Assembly: GCA_944378225.1 (NCBI GenBank)
Contig: CALWGE010000009.1
Location: forward strand, 1-56,770
Reading direction: 5' to 3'
DNA from: an uncultured Merdimonas sp.
Lineage (GTDB): Bacteria; Bacillota; Clostridia; Lachnospirales; Lachnospiraceae
Length of the DNA: 56,770 bases
Made by a program: the position numbers and the translations under genes. The notes under the pieces are model-generated. The model made no database searches, was not told the DNA's origin, and worked only from the letters and a program-made list of their open reading frames with translations. How positions within the stretch are numbered: position 1 is the stretch's first letter; each line of letters opens with the position of its first letter. Of this stretch, positions 8,168 through 14,763 are shown one piece after another.

Positions 8168-8837
8168 TGTCTTCCTCCTGTGTGGGATTGAGATAGGTGA
8201 CTTTCATGACACCTTCCAGGTGAGAGAGCCAGGTAACGGATTCTTCCGGTACGGGCTGATCTGTCTCCAGTACCATAACGGCATAGCCCCCGCGCCGGTT
8301 TCGATAGAGATGCAGAGTGGCTATGTTGACTGCTTTATGAGACAGCATAGAGGCGACTTCTGCCACATGACCAGGCTGATCCAGGTTGTGAACGATAAGA
8401 GTAGGACTCTCTCCTGTAAAATTGACTTCAATTCCGTCCAGTTTATTTACCATAATGCGTCCACCGCCCAGAGAAGAGGCCTGAAGTTCCAGCTTTCTGC
8501 CTTGGGCTGTTTCTACGTGGAGAACGGCTGTGTTCGGGTGGGCATCTGTCAGCTGCACCTCGTGGAAATGGACTTCCATACCACGTTCCAGAGCCAGACG
8601 CAGACTGTCAGGAATGCGGGTATCGTCTGGCTGCATACCGAGAAGGCCGGCCACAAGAGCCCGGTCAGTTCCATGGCCTTTTCCGGTAGCCGCGAAGGAG
8701 CCTGCCAGATCAATGTGAGCTTTTACCGGCTCATCTCCCAACAGTCTGCGTGTAATGAGACCGATTCTTACAGCACCGGCTGTATGAGAACTGGATGGAC
8801 CGACCATGACCGGTCCCAGGATATCGTATAAATTCAT
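8157..8837 (-). CDS. sdaAB: L-serine dehydratase, iron-sulphur-dependent, beta subunit
   Basis: The 226-residue beta subunit begins with MNLYDILGPVMVGPSSSHTAG, where PSSSHT is the conserved substrate/cluster-binding segment. The last 75 residues (from TLIVHNLDQPGHVAEV) form an ACT domain, which in related enzymes binds the amino acid and controls activity. It is first in the two-gene operon and uses the promoter at 8914-8942 on the minus strand. The promoter stands back to back with the copper-controlled csoR promoter. Confidence 0.95.
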   Translation of the reverse strand: MNLYDILGPVMVGPSSSHTAGAVRIGLITRRLLGDEPVKAHIDLAGSFAATGKGHGTDRALVAGLLGMQPDDTRIPDSLRLALERGMEVHFHEVQLTDAHPNTAVLHVETAQGRKLELQASSLGGGRIMVNKLDGIEVNFTGESPTLIVHNLDQPGHVAEVASMLSHKAVNIATLHLYRNRRGGYAVMVLETDQPVPEESVTWLSHLEGVMKVTYLNPTQEEDNGL

Positions 8838-8913
8838 GCATGTACCTCGTAGTTTTGTATGATAACGCTGTTGTATTTTTCAGACAGGAGTGGTTGATTT
8901 ACCTGCATTCTTT

Positions 8914-8942
8914 AGAATACGGAAAAAAGAGGAGACCGTCAA
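8914..8942 (-). promoter_or_regulatory. Promoter of sdaAB-sdaAA
   Basis: On the minus strand TTGACG (8942-8937), 17 nt, TATTCT (8919-8914). It gives a leader of about 70 nt before sdaAB. Confidence 0.7.
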
Positions 8943-8997
8943 GGGGGTGAAAGGCTGCAAATCTCTCCGTATTGATTTCTGAATAAAAAAATAAAGC

Positions 8998-9026
8998 TTG
9001 CAAAATACCCGATGGGGGTATATAAT
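8998..9026 (+). promoter_or_regulatory. Promoter of the csoR-copA operon
   Basis: TTGCAA at 8998-9003, 17 nt, TATAAT at 9021-9026. A CsoR-type operator fills the spacer, so repressor binding would exclude RNA polymerase. Confidence 0.85.
9005..9021 (+). promoter_or_regulatory. CsoR operator 1
   Basis: ATACCC-GAT-GGGGGTAT is the GC-rich inverted repeat (TACCC...GGGTA) bound by CsoR repressors. It lies between the -35 and -10 boxes. Copper(I) binding to CsoR releases the DNA. Confidence 0.85.
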
Positions 9027-9041
9027 AAACGCGAATGAAAA

Positions 9042-9058
9042 ATACCCCCTGGGCGTAT
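9042..9058 (+). promoter_or_regulatory. CsoR operator 2
   Basis: ATACCCCC-T-GGGCGTAT is a second, less perfect copy about 37 nt after the first and just after the predicted transcription start. Two operators suggest tighter or graded repression. Confidence 0.7.
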
Positions 9059-9104
9059 ATGGACATATCCAGTGACTGTAAGCCGGGGGAAAGAGGTGAC
9101 GGAA

Positions 9105-9413
9105 ATGGATGAACGGAAAGAATGCTGCTTTGTGCACGACAAAAAAGAGCGCACAAATAAGGAATATAAGGATCTTGTGAACCGCTTGAGCCGGATTGAA
9201 GGGCAGGTGCGGGGCATACGAAAGATGGTGGAGGGCGGCTCTTACTGCCCGGATATTCTGATCCAGGTGTCGGCAGTTAATGCGGCTTTGAACAGCTTTA
9301 ACAAGGTGCTGCTTGCCAGTCATATCCGGACCTGCGTTGCAGAAGATATCCGGGAAGGCAATGATGAGACGATTGATGAACTGGTGACTGTACTTCAGAA
9401 GCTGATGAGATAA
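9105..9413 (+). CDS. csoR: Copper-sensing repressor CsoR
   Basis: The 102-residue all-helical repressor has the copper(I) ligands of the CsoR family in the right spacing: Cys48, His73 and Cys77 (Cys-x24-His-x3-Cys). The LSRIEGQVRGIRKMV segment is the family signature for DNA contact. It senses cytosolic copper and derepresses its own operon with copA. ATG 9105 has GAGGTG at 9093-9098. An upstream in-frame start would overlap the operator region's leader and is less likely. An N-terminal CysCys (residues 7-8) is extra and not part of the known site. Confidence 0.93.
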   Translation: MDERKECCFVHDKKERTNKEYKDLVNRLSRIEGQVRGIRKMVEGGSYCPDILIQVSAVNAALNSFNKVLLASHIRTCVAEDIREGNDETIDELVTVLQKLMR

Positions 9414-9494
9414 AGCCGATTGATAAAGGAAACATACCGAAGTGGGGCTGTTCCCTGCTTTATGGGTGATACAAAGATGAGAGGAGGAAAAATT

Positions 9495-12068
9495 ATGGAA
9501 CAATACCGTGTGACAGGGATGAGCTGTGCGGCCTGCAGTGCCAGGGTGGAAAAAGCCGTGTCAAAGGTGCCTGGCGTTACTTCCTGTTCCGTGAGTCTTC
9601 TGACGAATTCCATGGGTGTGGAAGGAACGGCGGATGAAGCGGCTGTCATTGCCGCTGTGGAAGCCGCCGGCTATGGAGCTGCGGTAAAGGGCGGCACAGA
9701 CAGCGCAGGAACTGCGGCAGGGGCGAAAAACTCAGCCGCTGCGGCAGGAGCTGAGGAAGATATTCTGAAAGATACAGAGACGCCGAAGGTGCGCAGAAGA
9801 CTGATTGCATCGCTGTGCTTTCTGGTTCCGCTGATGTATATTTCCATGGGTCACATGATGTGGAACTGGCCGGTTCCACAGGTTCTGGAAGGAAATCATG
9901 TAGCCATGGGCATTCTTCAAATGCTGCTGGCGGGCATTATCATGGTGATTAATCAGAAATTTTTTATCAGCGGGTTTAAAGGGCTGCTGCACGGAGCCCC
10001 TAATATGGATACGCTGGTGGCAATGGGATCGGCAGCTTCTTTTATTTACAGTCTGTATGCGCTGCTTGCCATGACAGAAGCCCAGCTGAACGGCGATATG
10101 GAAGGCGTCATGTCCTATATGCATGAATTCTATTTTGAGTCCGCGGCCATGATTCTGACCCTGATTACAGTAGGAAAGATGCTGGAGGCTTACTCCAAGG
10201 GAAGAACCACAGATGCATTGAAGGGACTTATGAAACTCGCGCCGAAGACGGCTGTGATTATCCGGGAAGGTACAGAAACTACGGTTTCCATTGAACAGGT
10301 ACGAAAAGGAGATATCTTTGTGGTACGCCCCGGAGAAAATATACCGGTGGACGGTATTGTGCTGGAGGGCATCAGCGCGGTTAATGAATCAGCGCTGACA
10401 GGAGAAAGTATTCCTGTAGATAAAAAACCGGGAGATACGGTGTCGGCGGCTACTCTGAATCATTCAGGTTTTATCCGCTGTGAAGCCACAAGAGTCGGTG
10501 AAGATACAACTCTTTCTCAGATTATTCAGATGGTCAGCGATGCGGCTGCCACAAAGGCGCCTATTGCCAAGGTTGCGGATCGGGTGTCCGGAGTGTTCGT
10601 GCCGGCGGTCATCGGCATTGCCGTTGTAACGCTTCTTATCTGGCTTGCGGCAGGAGAGACCATTGGCTTTGCTCTGGCGCGTGCCGTTTCAGTTCTGGTA
10701 ATCAGCTGTCCCTGCGCCCTGGGGCTGGCGACTCCTGTGGCCATTATGGTGGGGAACGGAATGGGAGCCAGAAACGGTATTATGTTTAAGACGGCTGTTT
10801 CTCTGGAAGAGACAGGGAAGATGCAGATTGTGGCTCTGGATAAAACGGGAACTATTACAAGCGGTGAACCAAAGACTACAGATATTATTCCGGTGCAGGG
10901 AGTTTCGGAAGAAGAACTGCTGATTTTTGCCTACGCTCTGGAAAAGAAGAGCGAGCATCCTCTGTCCAGGGCAATTCTGGAAACAGCCCGGGAGCGGGGC
11001 GTTCAGGATGAACTGGAGGTAGAGGAATTTCAGGCAGTACCAGGCGGCGGTCTGACCGGAATACTTTCGGAAACGCAGCAGGGAGGCAGTGCGGCCGGCG
11101 GCCGTCTGACAGGCGGTAACCTGAAATATATCAGTGAAACTGCAGAAGTCGCGGCGGATGTACGCCGTCAGGCAGAGGCGCTGGCAGAGGAAGGAAAGAC
11201 GCCGCTGTTTTTCGCAAAGGACGGGAAACTGCTGGGAATCATCGCCGTAGCAGATGTAATGAAAGAAGACAGTCCCCAGGCAGTACGGGAACTTCAGAAT
11301 ATGGGTATCCATGTAGTGATGCTGACCGGTGATAATGAGAAAACGGCAAGAGCTATCGGAAAACAGGCAGGTGTGGATGAGGTGATTGCCGGAGTACTTC
11401 CGGAAGGAAAGGAACGTGTGATACGTGCTCTCAAAGAAAAGGGAAAGACGGCCATGGTGGGCGACGGTATCAATGACGCGCCGGCTCTGACAAGAGCTGA
11501 TATGGGAATCGCCATTGGGGCCGGAACCGACATTGCCATAGATGCTGCGGATGTAGTTCTGATGAAAAGCAGTCTGCGTGACGTGCCTGCAGCTATCCGG
11601 CTGAGCAGAGCAACGCTTCGTAATATTCATGAAAATCTTTTCTGGGCATTCTTCTATAATGTCATTGGCATTCCGCTGGCAGCAGGTGTCTGGATTCCTG
11701 TGTTTGGCTGGCAGCTCAGCCCCATGTTCGGGGCGGCAGCCATGAGTCTTTCGAGCTTCTGTGTGGTAACAAACGCGCTTCGTCTGAACTGGTTTCGGAT
11801 GCATGATGCGGGTAAAGATAAAAAAATAAAACAAAATGTAAAAAAGGAGAAGACAAGTATGAAAAAAACGATTACAATTGAAGGTATGATGTGCGGACAC
11901 TGTGAGGCAGCAGTAAAAAAGGCTCTCGAAGAGCTTCCTCAGGTAAGCGAGGCAGTAGTAAGCCATGAGACAGGAACGGCAGTGGTAACACTGAGTGAAG
12001 AAGTAGCTGACGATGTTCTGAAGAAAACCGTAGAAGCGAAAGACTATACGGTTACCGGTATTGCATAA
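9495..12068 (+). CDS. copA: Copper-exporting P1B-type ATPase with C-terminal CopZ-like fusion
   Basis: The 857-residue protein pumps copper(I) out of the cytosol. In order it shows an N-terminal heavy-metal domain (MSCAAC, Cys11/Cys14), a Gly/Ala-rich linker, membrane helices, the actuator region (ALTGESIPV), the metal-site CPC (SCPCALGLATP), the phosphorylation site DKTGTIT, the SEHPLS nucleotide-binding HP motif, GDGINDAPAL and the last two helices. After the final helix comes a Lys-rich linker and a second heavy-metal domain from Met789 with CGHC (Cys800/Cys803). GAGGAGG at 9481-9487 fits ATG 9495. The C-terminal domain is unusual for position: it carries its own ribosome site and start, described separately. 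Confidence 0.95.
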   Translation: MEQYRVTGMSCAACSARVEKAVSKVPGVTSCSVSLLTNSMGVEGTADEAAVIAAVEAAGYGAAVKGGTDSAGTAAGAKNSAAAAGAEEDILKDTETPKVRRRLIASLCFLVPLMYISMGHMMWNWPVPQVLEGNHVAMGILQMLLAGIIMVINQKFFISGFKGLLHGAPNMDTLVAMGSAASFIYSLYALLAMTEAQLNGDMEGVMSYMHEFYFESAAMILTLITVGKMLEAYSKGRTTDALKGLMKLAPKTAVIIREGTETTVSIEQVRKGDIFVVRPGENIPVDGIVLEGISAVNESALTGESIPVDKKPGDTVSAATLNHSGFIRCEATRVGEDTTLSQIIQMVSDAAATKAPIAKVADRVSGVFVPAVIGIAVVTLLIWLAAGETIGFALARAVSVLVISCPCALGLATPVAIMVGNGMGARNGIMFKTAVSLEETGKMQIVALDKTGTITSGEPKTTDIIPVQGVSEEELLIFAYALEKKSEHPLSRAILETARERGVQDELEVEEFQAVPGGGLTGILSETQQGGSAAGGRLTGGNLKYISETAEVAADVRRQAEALAEEGKTPLFFAKDGKLLGIIAVADVMKEDSPQAVRELQNMGIHVVMLTGDNEKTARAIGKQAGVDEVIAGVLPEGKERVIRALKEKGKTAMVGDGINDAPALTRADMGIAIGAGTDIAIDAADVVLMKSSLRDVPAAIRLSRATLRNIHENLFWAFFYNVIGIPLAAGVWIPVFGWQLSPMFGAAAMSLSSFCVVTNALRLNWFRMHDAGKDKKIKQNVKKEKTSMKKTITIEGMMCGHCEAAVKKALEELPQVSEAVVSHETGTAVVTLSEEVADDVLKKTVEAKDYTVTGIA
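11859..12068 (+). CDS. Internal in-frame start giving a 69-residue CopZ-like copper chaperone
   Basis: Inside copA, AAAAAGGAG at 11841-11849 stands 9 nt before ATG 11859, which is in the copA frame. Translation from here yields 69 residues, MKKTITIEGMMCGHCEAAV onwards, the length and sequence type of free CopZ chaperones (Cys12/Cys15 as CxHC). CopZ carries copper(I) to CopA and to CsoR. The upstream linker (KDKKIKQNVKKEKTS) reads like a translated intergenic spacer. So one gene may give both a fused and a free chaperone. The ribosome site and frame are seen directly; use of the start is inferred. Confidence 0.65.
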   Translation: MKKTITIEGMMCGHCEAAVKKALEELPQVSEAVVSHETGTAVVTLSEEVADDVLKKTVEAKDYTVTGIA

Positions 12069-12097
12069 ATAACAGAAAGAATTATAAAATGCAGTCG

Positions 12098-12159
12098 CAA
12101 AGAGGCGGTATTGAGCGGATATTCATGAAAATCCTGCTCAGACCGCCTCTTTGTTTTTG
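12098..12159 (+). terminator. Terminator of the copper operon
   Basis: CAAAGAGGCGGT (12098-12109) pairs with ACCGCCTCTTTG, with further inner pairing of TGAGCGGAT and ATCCTGCTCA, followed by TTTTT. Confidence 0.85.
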
Positions 12160-12213
12160 GAATACGTCTGGATTCTGCAGAAAAGATTACAGAGTAAAAA
12201 GGAGGACGATATC

Positions 12214-14763
12214 ATGCATGAACGGGCAAGTACAGGAATCAAAGGTTTTGATCAGATGATCGACATGCTGCGGATGGGAGACAATGTAGTGTGGCAGGTG
12301 GATACCATTGACGATTACCGGTATATGACCGGGCCATACATTGATCAGGCCAGGCGGGACGGAAGAAAAATAATCTATATCCGGTTTGCATCTCATGAGC
12401 CGGTTTTAAAGGATACCGAAGGAATTCAGATCAGCAGGGTAGATTCCGGACAGGGGTTTGAAGCATTTGCTTCTCAGATCCGTCAGATCATTACGGAAGC
12501 GGGACTGGATGCGTTTTATGTTTTTGACAGTCTGACGTTTCTTCTGGATGCCTGGCATTCAGATCTTATGATTGGAAACTTTTTTCAGGTAACCTGCCCC
12601 TATCTTTACGAATTAAATACGATTGCATACTTTGCTCTGATCCGTGACGCGCATACGTATGACACAATTGCCCGTATCAGAGAGACGACTCAGCTGCTTC
12701 TGGAGCTCTATCATATTGAGGGAAATTATTATGTCCATCCTCTGAAAGTATGGCAGAGATATTCTCCGACCATGTTTCTTCCTCACCTTCTGAAGGAGCA
12801 GGAAGCAGTTTCCATTACGGCTTCGGCGGAAACGGCAGAGCTTTTCAGTAATCTTTTGTACAGGGAAAGAAAGCGGGATTACTGGGAGGAAATAATAAAA
12901 AGCTGTGCGGATGCCCGCAGCGGCAGCGCAGAACTGCAGGAGGAGAAAAAATGTCTTCTGCTGGAATTGCTTGTGGGGAAAAATTCCAGAATTTACGATT
13001 TGTGTGTAGAATATTTTTCTCTGGAAGAGATAGTCCGGGTGGCAGGACGGGAAATCGGAAGCGGTTATATAGGCGGAAAGAGTGTCGGCATGCTGCTGGC
13101 GCGTCAGATGCTGATGAAAGATCCGGCGGATGCGGCGCGTTTTCAGCCGCTTATGGAGTCCAATGATTCTTTTTATCTGGGCGCGGATATTTTTTACACT
13201 TATATCGTTCAGAACGGATGCTGGAGCCTGCGCATGAAGCAGAAGACCAGGGAAGGATATTTTACATATGCTCCGGAACTGAAGAAACGTATTCTGGAAG
13301 GGAAATTTCCGGAGCTGATCCGGGATTATTTTGTCCGCATGCTGGAGTATTACGGACAGTCTCCCATCATAGTCCGCTCAAGCTCCCTTTTGGAGGATAA
13401 TTTCGGAAATGCGTTTGCGGGAAAGTATGAAAGTGTTTTCTGTCCAAACCAGGGCTCTCCGGAGGAGCGGCTTCAGGCCTTTGAGGATGCCGTAAAAACA
13501 GTGTACGCAAGCACTATGAATGAAGACGCCCTCCAGTACCGGGTAAGCCGGGGACTTGCGCAGAAAGATGAGCAGATGGCAGTCCTCGTTCAGAGGGTGT
13601 CAGGAGATTATTTTGGAGATTATTTTTTCCCGCACCTGGCCGGTATGGGGAATTCTTCAAACCTTTATGTATGGGATAAGGATATTGATATGGACGCGGG
13701 AATGCTGCGCCTGGTTTTTGGTCTGGGAACCAGAGCGGTGGATCGGATTATCGGGGATTACGCGCGAATTGTCACTCTGGATAATCCCATGCGCACACCG
13801 CTGATCCAGGCCGGAGATGAAAGAAAATTTTCTCAGCATTATGTGGATGTGCTGAATCTGAAGGAAAACAGATTTATGAGCATAGATTTGGATGATGCTC
13901 TTGCTCTGGATATTAAAACAGATAAGAGTCTCTTTGCACAGATGGATTATACGGAATATCAGCGTCTTCGGGAGCTGGGGTATCGGGATCGGAAACCTCC
14001 GTATTCACTGAACTTTCGCAAGCTTCTTCGTGACACGCCCTTTCCGGAGCTGATGAAAGAGATTCTTGCGCGTTTGTCTCAGAAATATGATTATCCGGTA
14101 GATATTGAGTTCACGGTTAATTTCCGCAAAGACGGAAGTTTTCGGATCAATCTGCTTCAGTGCCGCCCGCTTCAGACCAAAGGACTGGGAAAGACAGTGG
14201 AACTGCCGCAGATAAACGGAAGAGACGACTGTATTTTCTGGACCAGAGGCAATTTTATGGGCGGGAATGTACGTCTTCCCATCGATTATGTAATATATGT
14301 AGATGCCAAAAGTTATGCAGGAAAGAGTGAACAGGAGAAATATACGATTGCCCGGCTGATTGGAGAGCTGAACCGGAAACTGGGGGATCAGAATCTGATG
14401 CTGATAGGTCCCGGACGGTTTGGAACAACTACGCCGTCTCTGGGTGTGCCGGTTCATTTTACGGAGCTGAATCGGGTGCAGGTTATGTGCGAATATTCAT
14501 CCTCGGCCCTGGGACTGATGCCGGAGCTCTCCTATGGAAGCCATTTCTTTCAGGATTTAGTGGAAACAGGAATTTTTTATGTGGCGCTGTTTTCAGAAAA
14601 AGAAGATGTAAGTTTTTCCCCCGGACATTTTCTGGAGAATGAGAATCTTCTTTCCAGGATTCTGAAGCACGGGGAAGAACATCAGGATGCGCTGCATGTC
14701 TGCAGAACTCCTCATGTGGAGGTGTATTCGGATATTGTAAGCCAGATTGCGGTATGCAAATAG
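12214..14763 (+). CDS. PEP synthase/PPDK N-terminal (ATP-grasp) domain protein without phosphohistidine domain
   Basis: The 849-residue protein has three parts. Residues 1 to about 200 (STGIKGFDQMIDMLR..., then KIIYIRFASHEPV) resemble the KaiC/GvpD RecA-like fold but have no Walker A lysine. Residues about 290-660 match the nucleotide-binding domain of PEP synthase and pyruvate phosphate dikinase: GGKSVGM, VRSSSLLEDNFGNAFAGKYE and LLQCRPLQ. The C-terminal 190 residues are unknown. The mobile phosphohistidine domain (TSHA-type motif) and the PEP-binding barrel are absent, so it cannot be a full PEP synthase. AAAGGAGG lies 9 nt before ATG 12214. It appears monocistronic; I cannot name a substrate. 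Confidence 0.75.
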   Translation: MHERASTGIKGFDQMIDMLRMGDNVVWQVDTIDDYRYMTGPYIDQARRDGRKIIYIRFASHEPVLKDTEGIQISRVDSGQGFEAFASQIRQIITEAGLDAFYVFDSLTFLLDAWHSDLMIGNFFQVTCPYLYELNTIAYFALIRDAHTYDTIARIRETTQLLLELYHIEGNYYVHPLKVWQRYSPTMFLPHLLKEQEAVSITASAETAELFSNLLYRERKRDYWEEIIKSCADARSGSAELQEEKKCLLLELLVGKNSRIYDLCVEYFSLEEIVRVAGREIGSGYIGGKSVGMLLARQMLMKDPADAARFQPLMESNDSFYLGADIFYTYIVQNGCWSLRMKQKTREGYFTYAPELKKRILEGKFPELIRDYFVRMLEYYGQSPIIVRSSSLLEDNFGNAFAGKYESVFCPNQGSPEERLQAFEDAVKTVYASTMNEDALQYRVSRGLAQKDEQMAVLVQRVSGDYFGDYFFPHLAGMGNSSNLYVWDKDIDMDAGMLRLVFGLGTRAVDRIIGDYARIVTLDNPMRTPLIQAGDERKFSQHYVDVLNLKENRFMSIDLDDALALDIKTDKSLFAQMDYTEYQRLRELGYRDRKPPYSLNFRKLLRDTPFPELMKEILARLSQKYDYPVDIEFTVNFRKDGSFRINLLQCRPLQTKGLGKTVELPQINGRDDCIFWTRGNFMGGNVRLPIDYVIYVDAKSYAGKSEQEKYTIARLIGELNRKLGDQNLMLIGPGRFGTTTPSLGVPVHFTELNRVQVMCEYSSSALGLMPELSYGSHFFQDLVETGIFYVALFSEKEDVSFSPGHFLENENLLSRILKHGEEHQDALHVCRTPHVEVYSDIVSQIAVCK

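Follow-up and report, generated by a model that had tools for sequence, protein, structure and literature searches.

The window, a stretch of 56,770 nucleotides from an uncultured Merdimonas sp. (contig CALWGE010000009.1), carries on its forward strand a single open frame that runs from an ATG at 9495 to a TAA at 12066–12068 (857 codons by open reading frame analysis), and in it an HMA domain at the N-terminus is followed by a P1B ATPase, then by a linker rich in Lys and finally by a complete CopZ-like HMA domain. The features of the locus are these:

8998–9026, + strand: sigma-70-like promoter TTGCAA-17-TATAAT, likely that of a csoR-copA-copZ transcript (10 of 12 consensus matches; consensus only)
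9006–9020, + strand: putative CsoR-operator-like palindrome TACCCGATGGGGGTA, within the promoter (0 mismatches to TACCC-N5-GGGTA)
9043–9057, + strand: second putative CsoR-operator-like site TACCCCCTGGGCGTA (1 mismatch to TACCC-N5-GGGTA)
9105–9413, + strand: csoR-like repressor gene (Pfam PF02583 Trns_repr_metal, 110.8 bits, cut-off 22.8)
9482–9487, + strand: copA's own ribosome site, AGGAGG (duplex energy with the anti-SD tail −12.0 kcal/mol)
9495–12068, + strand: fused copA-copZ reading frame, 857 aa, 90 kDa (frame, genome and Pfam searches)
9504–9674, + strand: N-terminal HMA domain (profile searches)
11790–11858, + strand: Lys-rich linker after the last helix (start approximate)
11820–11826, + strand: A7 run, GAT AAA AAA ATA AAA (no evidence for programmed slippage)
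11844–11849, + strand: AAGGAG, internal ribosome site of the copZ part (sequence, junction statistics, duplex energy)
11859–12068, + strand: internal copZ reading frame, ATG and 69 aa, MKKTITIEGMMCGHC... (sequence, Pfam/NCBI models, junction comparison)
11868–12047, + strand: C-terminal CopZ-like HMA domain (profile searches)
12097–12158, + strand: hairpin and T-run, likely the intrinsic terminator of the operon (−36.1 kcal/mol, z −7.7)

The operator-like palindromes were scored against TACCC-N5-GGGTA, which we take to be the CsoR operator pattern; at up to 2 mismatches, the window as a whole holds no excess of this pattern (9 found versus 11.3 expected). The csoR-like gene scored 73.3 bits against the RicR model NF052430, below its cut-off of 175. 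A simple terminator scan did not list the hairpin at 12097–12158, the probable reason being the length of its loop. The presence of two palindromes at the csoR promoter agrees with the dual CsoR sites described for gut Firmicutes in passages of a metagenomic study (PMC4938975).

The CopA part matches PF00122 (194 bits), PF00702 (123 bits) and, at 4–60, PF00403, which is the domain set of a P1B ATPase, and it passes the copper-translocating subfamily models TIGR01511 (585 bits, cut-off 397) and TIGR01525 (622 bits, cut-off 346); against the E. coli CopA equivalog NF007952 it scored 611 bits, below the cut-off of 1316. Its translated membrane part carries a CPC motif (...VISCPCALGLATP...), which we take to be the metal-binding motif of this part in CopA-type P1B ATPases. 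By these features the gene would encode a CopA-type P1B ATPase, with predicted Cu(I) transport. The C-terminal piece (69 aa, computed mass 7.3 kDa, pI 4.8) is, as the initial annotation had it, a complete CopZ-like domain: it scores 61.4 bits against Pfam HMA (PF00403, cut-off 24.8) over profile positions 1–61 of 62, it has the size of a stand-alone small HMA domain, and its metal motif GMMCGHC fits GMxCxxC. The nearest solved structures by sequence are the CopA N-terminal domains 2rml and 1p6t and then the CopZ 6ff2, with the CopZ structures 1k0v and 2qif matching as well. Taken alone, the 69-residue part scores below the curated CopZ cut-offs (NF033795, 49.3 versus 91; NF047957, 49.3 versus 85; TIGR00003, 31.6 versus 62), and we therefore call it CopZ-like and not a member of the curated CopZ families; the whole fused protein passes NF047957 (100.1) because its two HMA domains add up.

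Within the linker, AAAAAGGAG stands at 11841–11849 and an in-frame ATG at 11859–11861, with 9 nt between them; a ribosome site and a start codon thus lie in phase inside a longer frame, as in genes nested within genes. The 21-mer of this stretch has one exact copy in the window. The AAGGAG at 11844–11849 has a duplex energy of −8.9 kcal/mol, a value reached by 3.8% of 10005 control codons, and is weaker in the window than the site of copA (−8.9 versus −12.0 kcal/mol). The region from −30 to +20 around the internal ATG is predicted to be unstructured (0.0 kcal/mol in the window), an openness that would favour initiation. Internal start regions at large are weakly structured (mean −1.7 kcal/mol, versus −11.6 for random codons and −10.8 for other ATGs), but the A-richness of the linkers accounts for part of this, as they would be open anyway.

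The fused frame is not peculiar to the window. Counting the one that holds the window, 9 of 16 genomes in the genus have a stop-free fused junction: an assembly search met no stops inside the match on the window's own contig, and 8 of the other 15 genomes carry the fusion, seven at 88–92% junction identity and one, divergent, at 56%. The remaining 7 match only a different CopA, which ends in ...LRLK(R/G)LKL-stop and has no C-terminal domain. Because the same stop-free fusion recurs in separate assemblies of these 8 other genomes, it is not a base-calling error of one assembly, and the concern, raised at the outset, that a sequencing error had removed a real copA stop codon falls away. At wider range, a junction profile matched 234 of 250 family genomes (E 1e-45 or better), and 348 of 391 class genomes were matched by a second profile (E 1e-40 or better); both figures include CopA without the C-terminal domain and are counts of profile-matching genomes, not of fusions. 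We read the DNA of 274 loci among the matches listed (two of which, L011 and L121, are the window itself), a comparison of fused with separate junctions that the initial annotation had proposed: 228 were fused, 17 had split copA and copZ, 14 had no HMA that we could find and 15 failed the motif filter. Under a looser rule, the last 15 comprised 13 fusions (13 of 13 with Met, 12 with a Shine-Dalgarno (SD) site) and 2 undecided cases; these 13 were left out of the counts below, which refer to the 220 non-redundant fused junctions that remained once eight near-duplicate loci had been removed; 69 of these junctions come from named records. Named fused loci include those of Schaedlerella, Hornefia, Butyrivibrio, Ruminococcus, Gemmiger and Acetobacterium, and the fused form also occurs in metagenome-assembled Treponema, Elusimicrobiales and Coriobacteriaceae, where contigs may be misplaced. 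A tree with 245 rows requires 7 changes of the fused state, 5 of them forced by starred branches. The fusion, present at 228 of 274 loci, is not recent.

The 17 split loci (L102, L103, L115, L282–L286, L288–L293, L295, L296 and L298) resemble the fused gene in that CopA is followed by an HMA protein, here with a start of its own, and differ from it in that a stop codon and 0–246 nt separate copA from the first ATG found; an SD of at least 5 nt precedes that ATG in 13 of the 17. Because similarity to fused junctions was the criterion for choosing loci, the split fraction is no guide to natural frequencies. One of the split loci, L102 (Lachnospiraceae bacterium UBA5902), is a close relative (best segment 84% identical) in which CopA stops after the last helix and a different HMA gene, of CGMC type and with AAGGAGG, follows, an apparent loss or replacement of the fused domain.

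At 210 of the 220 junctions the HMA part starts with ATG, at 2 with GTG (both with an SD) and at 8 with neither. We compared the ATG junctions, from loci selected by similarity to fused junctions, with a null of 1000 draws of synonymous codons from the same gene, genomes being treated as independent: AGGAG or GGAGG stood at −18 to −5 in 177 of 210 (null mean 55.9, maximum 73, z 21.6) and an SD match of at least 5 nt was present in 196 (null 90.3, maximum 114), and the ribosome site and start which the initial annotation had seen preserved in one gene are kept at most of the fused junctions. A match of at least 4 nt was found in 207. For other in-frame ATGs of the same genes, the corresponding figures were 52 (core motif), 112 (at least 5 nt) and 648 (at least 4 nt) of 4207. 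Fourteen ATG junctions lack a 5-nt match; in 3 of them not even 4 nt match, and L142, among these 3, has GGAGG before another nearby Met. Where our rule could place a start for copA itself, AGGAG or GGAGG preceded it in 21 of 55 cases; with 177 of 210, the internal site is thus the stronger on average. Information content over the 33 nt upstream peaks at −12 to −10.

In front of the internal start, Glu occupies position −4 in 162 of the 210 junctions and is written GAG in 151 of the 162 (46% gene-wide), whereas a Glu right after it is written GAA in 70 of 72 cases (54% gene-wide). The residue at −5 is mostly Lys, otherwise Glu, Gln, Thr, Met, Leu, Ala or Val, with Gly, Ser or Arg in 11; its codon ends in G in 146 of 162, Lys being AAG in 97 of 101 (51% gene-wide) and Thr ACG in 13 of 13 (27% gene-wide). 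GGAG falls in the codon phase xxG GAG in 147 junctions, GGA G in 30 and the third phase in 2. The codons thus spell GGAGGAA largely whatever the amino acid, and since adjacent Glu codons are chosen in opposite ways, it is an RNA motif that is conserved and not just a peptide.

These patterns bear directly on two other accounts of the junction. According to the first, once-separate copA and copZ genes lost the stop codon between them, the sole product is the fused pump, and the internal ribosome site and start remain as unused leftovers. Split relatives exist, so the parts of such a fusion have a ready source, many of them already with an SD before the ATG; an unused leftover should decay, however, and the linker has diverged in length (8–78 aa, median 30 over the 210 junctions) and in sequence, yet motif and ATG stand far above the synonymous null. 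We consider an idle relic very unlikely, and reject it on the codon pattern. According to the second, the linker has a structural or proteolytic role for which a K/Q/T-E-E stretch and the Met are retained, initiation having no part in it. The frequent Glu at −4 does mean that part of the motif follows from the amino acids, as the 55.9 of 210 expected under the null reflect, but constraint on the peptide leaves unexplained why neighbouring Glu positions take opposite codons, why the codon at −5 ends in G although its residue varies, and why the phase GGA G yields the same RNA from other residues; we consider such a role very unlikely as the explanation. Nor is the Met simply an ordinary residue of HMA domains, a possibility ruled out by 20 tandem N-terminal HMA pairs used as control, in which the second HMA has the Met in 2 of 20 and an SD of at least 5 nt in 3 of 20.

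Another route to a free carrier would be proteolysis of the Lys-rich linker; such linkers are protease-prone, but proteolysis needs no SD at a fixed distance from an in-frame ATG. Nor does an internal transcript, which in place of initiation on the long message could also supply the carrier, fare better, since the promoter-like matches close to the junction score weakly (9 of 12), with 6 such matches within 8830–12300 against 3.1 ± 1.8 in shuffles; E. coli rpn genes do pair an internal start with an internal transcript, as described in passages of PMC10327210, and even so we hold either route to be scarcely probable.

The initial annotation had also proposed that CopA lacking the extra domain could be released through slippage at the A7 run, an event that would be compatible with internal initiation. 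This part, unlike the fusion with its kept copZ start, was not supported when set against two nulls. Loss of one A does give AAA AAA TAA in the window, and an A7 run followed directly by TAA is somewhat more frequent than linker codon usage predicts (17 versus 10.1 ± 2.7, maximum 19 in 500 draws), but runs of A7 or longer are as common as expected from it (48 of 210 linkers versus 48.8). Under a gene-wide null the excess looked larger (A7, 48 versus 28.4; A7-TAA, 17 versus 2.1; A8 or more, 5 versus 9.5), but the linkers have a higher A content than the remainder of the gene. The A7 run recurs in each of the seven close congeners, and in six of them the next Ile codon is ATC or ATT in place of ATA, so that a one-base slip would not meet TAA there; programmed slippage is, in our judgement, highly improbable.

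Of the eight junctions without a start codon, only 2 have an SD of at least 5 nt at the expected place (Fisher p 7e-6, uncorrected for kinship); GGAGG is retained in L057 and L225, and AAGGAG in the linker of L195. In a FastTree phylogeny with 218 fused rows, each start-less row accounts for one change of the start codon, which makes 8 in all (5 of them forced by starred branches), and the SD needs 18. A kinship-corrected test for joint loss of start and SD had 5 supported pairs only, which puts significance out of reach (median p 0.125). A separate HMA gene lies just downstream at 4 of the 8 start-less loci, versus 1 of the 117 start-bearing loci whose flank spans 800 nt or more, in a post hoc comparison for which extra flank was fetched for four start-less loci only and in which L267 lies near a contig end. 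The four are L057, L088, L225 and L195 (seen in L332), and the start-bearing L213, with a short flank, also has a separate downstream HMA gene. Small HMA genes directly 3' of the fused gene were observed in L057, L088, L225, L332, L139 and L213; they are of CGMC type in five of these six loci and of CGGC type in L057.

A search of the window's genome (assembly 94% complete) for HMA domains found only two matches besides the two in the fused gene. The first is a small Cys-rich membrane protein (L152 1468–1854, G000:C6; HMA 44 bits) that adjoins a gene for a FeoB C-terminal domain and scores 25.2 against Pfam FeoB_associated, just under the cut-off of 27; its CopZ-like HMA is preceded by an in-frame Met (MKKT) that has no SD, a contrast to the copA junction within the same genome. 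The second is an 82-aa HMA protein adjoining another P-type ATPase. As these were the only others, one linked to FeoB and one beside another pump, no separate copZ was found by the HMA search of this 94% complete assembly. L003 (G000:C34) is a hit to a second heavy-metal-type P-type ATPase with an in-frame TAG, adjoining a stand-alone small HMA gene. In many other fused genomes, additional small HMA frames occur at other places, so that their free chaperones need not be limited to the internal product.

The anatomy of the sequence, the wide spread of the fused form and the conservation of the internal site and start at the level of codons are matters of observation, and from them we consider it highly probable that selection maintains internal initiation, which would make a free CopZ-like chaperone beside the tethered one. 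We regard the copZ part as a hidden cistron that is real, conserved and probably functional. Ribosomes starting at 9495 would produce a copper pump that bears copper-binding domains at both termini, while others, binding AAGGAG at 11844–11849 on the same message and starting at the ATG 11859, would produce a free carrier of 69 residues. Both starts would lie on one CsoR-controlled message. The small product, if stable, would ferry Cu(I) to CopA and possibly to CsoR, and the tethered copy may serve as a local copper-binding domain of the pump. The initial annotation's idea of a tethered and a free chaperone, reached by a route unlike that of E. coli, thus draws strong support from codon-level conservation over 220 junctions.

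The E. coli copA gene reportedly gives CopA(Z) by programmed ribosomal frameshifting, a finding credited to Meydan et al. 2017 and Drees et al. 2017. Akin to that system, one copper-ATPase gene would here provide both a pump and a free CopZ-like chaperone in a genome with no separate copZ; unlike it, where frameshifting yields the chaperone from the first of two N-terminal domains, the domain here is C-terminal, in frame and served by a proposed internal start, and by the position and frame of this domain the gene is not of the CopA(Z) type. The CopA of Archaeoglobus fulgidus is said to have a C-terminal metal-binding domain, with HMA domains at both ends, and is in this respect like the fused copper ATPase; we know of no separate translation of its C-terminal domain. 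As regards the split copA and copZ-like genes of other Clostridia, the HMA of L102, of CGMC type, sets that locus further apart from the fused gene. Mechanistic parallels come from other functions: excerpts of two papers describe Cas11, made from cas8 or cas10 (PMC11899642), and RpnS, made from rpn (PMC10327210), as products of an internal in-frame start, so that there too the C-terminal part of a larger protein is made separately, although those systems are CRISPR complexes and toxin-antitoxin pairs and ours pairs a metal chaperone with its pump. We found no published description of a copZ nested in copA in the open-licence literature, and the main text of a gut-consortium small-protein proteomics study (PMC7903761) contains no mention of copper, heavy metal, HMA or chaperone. 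Annotation usually assigns a single product to each frame, and a nested copZ would escape it.

We lean, on balance, towards a broader reading: in many Clostridia the 'missing' chaperone would be a copZ cistron lying wholly inside copA, translated separately, kept by selection on the RNA and served by a ribosome site on average stronger than copA's own, and lineages that lose the internal start would tend to keep or gain a separate HMA gene downstream. Since copZ would then be translated separately from within copA on one message, the ratio of pump to carrier would be set by the two ribosome sites. This would be a solution independent of that of E. coli, with the same end result reached by another mechanism and at the opposite terminus of the protein. 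Other hidden cistrons may also be recognised by opposite codon bias at identical residues that lie next to each other ahead of an internal Met, and the nested copZ is a prediction that can be tested in cultured gut species. Passages of the metagenomic study cited above (PMC4938975) state that the CsoR regulon of human gut Firmicutes lacks CopZ-type chaperones and that, among the ten most abundant gut Clostridiales genera, BLAST with the B. subtilis and S. aureus CopZ found a homologue in just one; a copZ inside copA could help to explain this reported absence.
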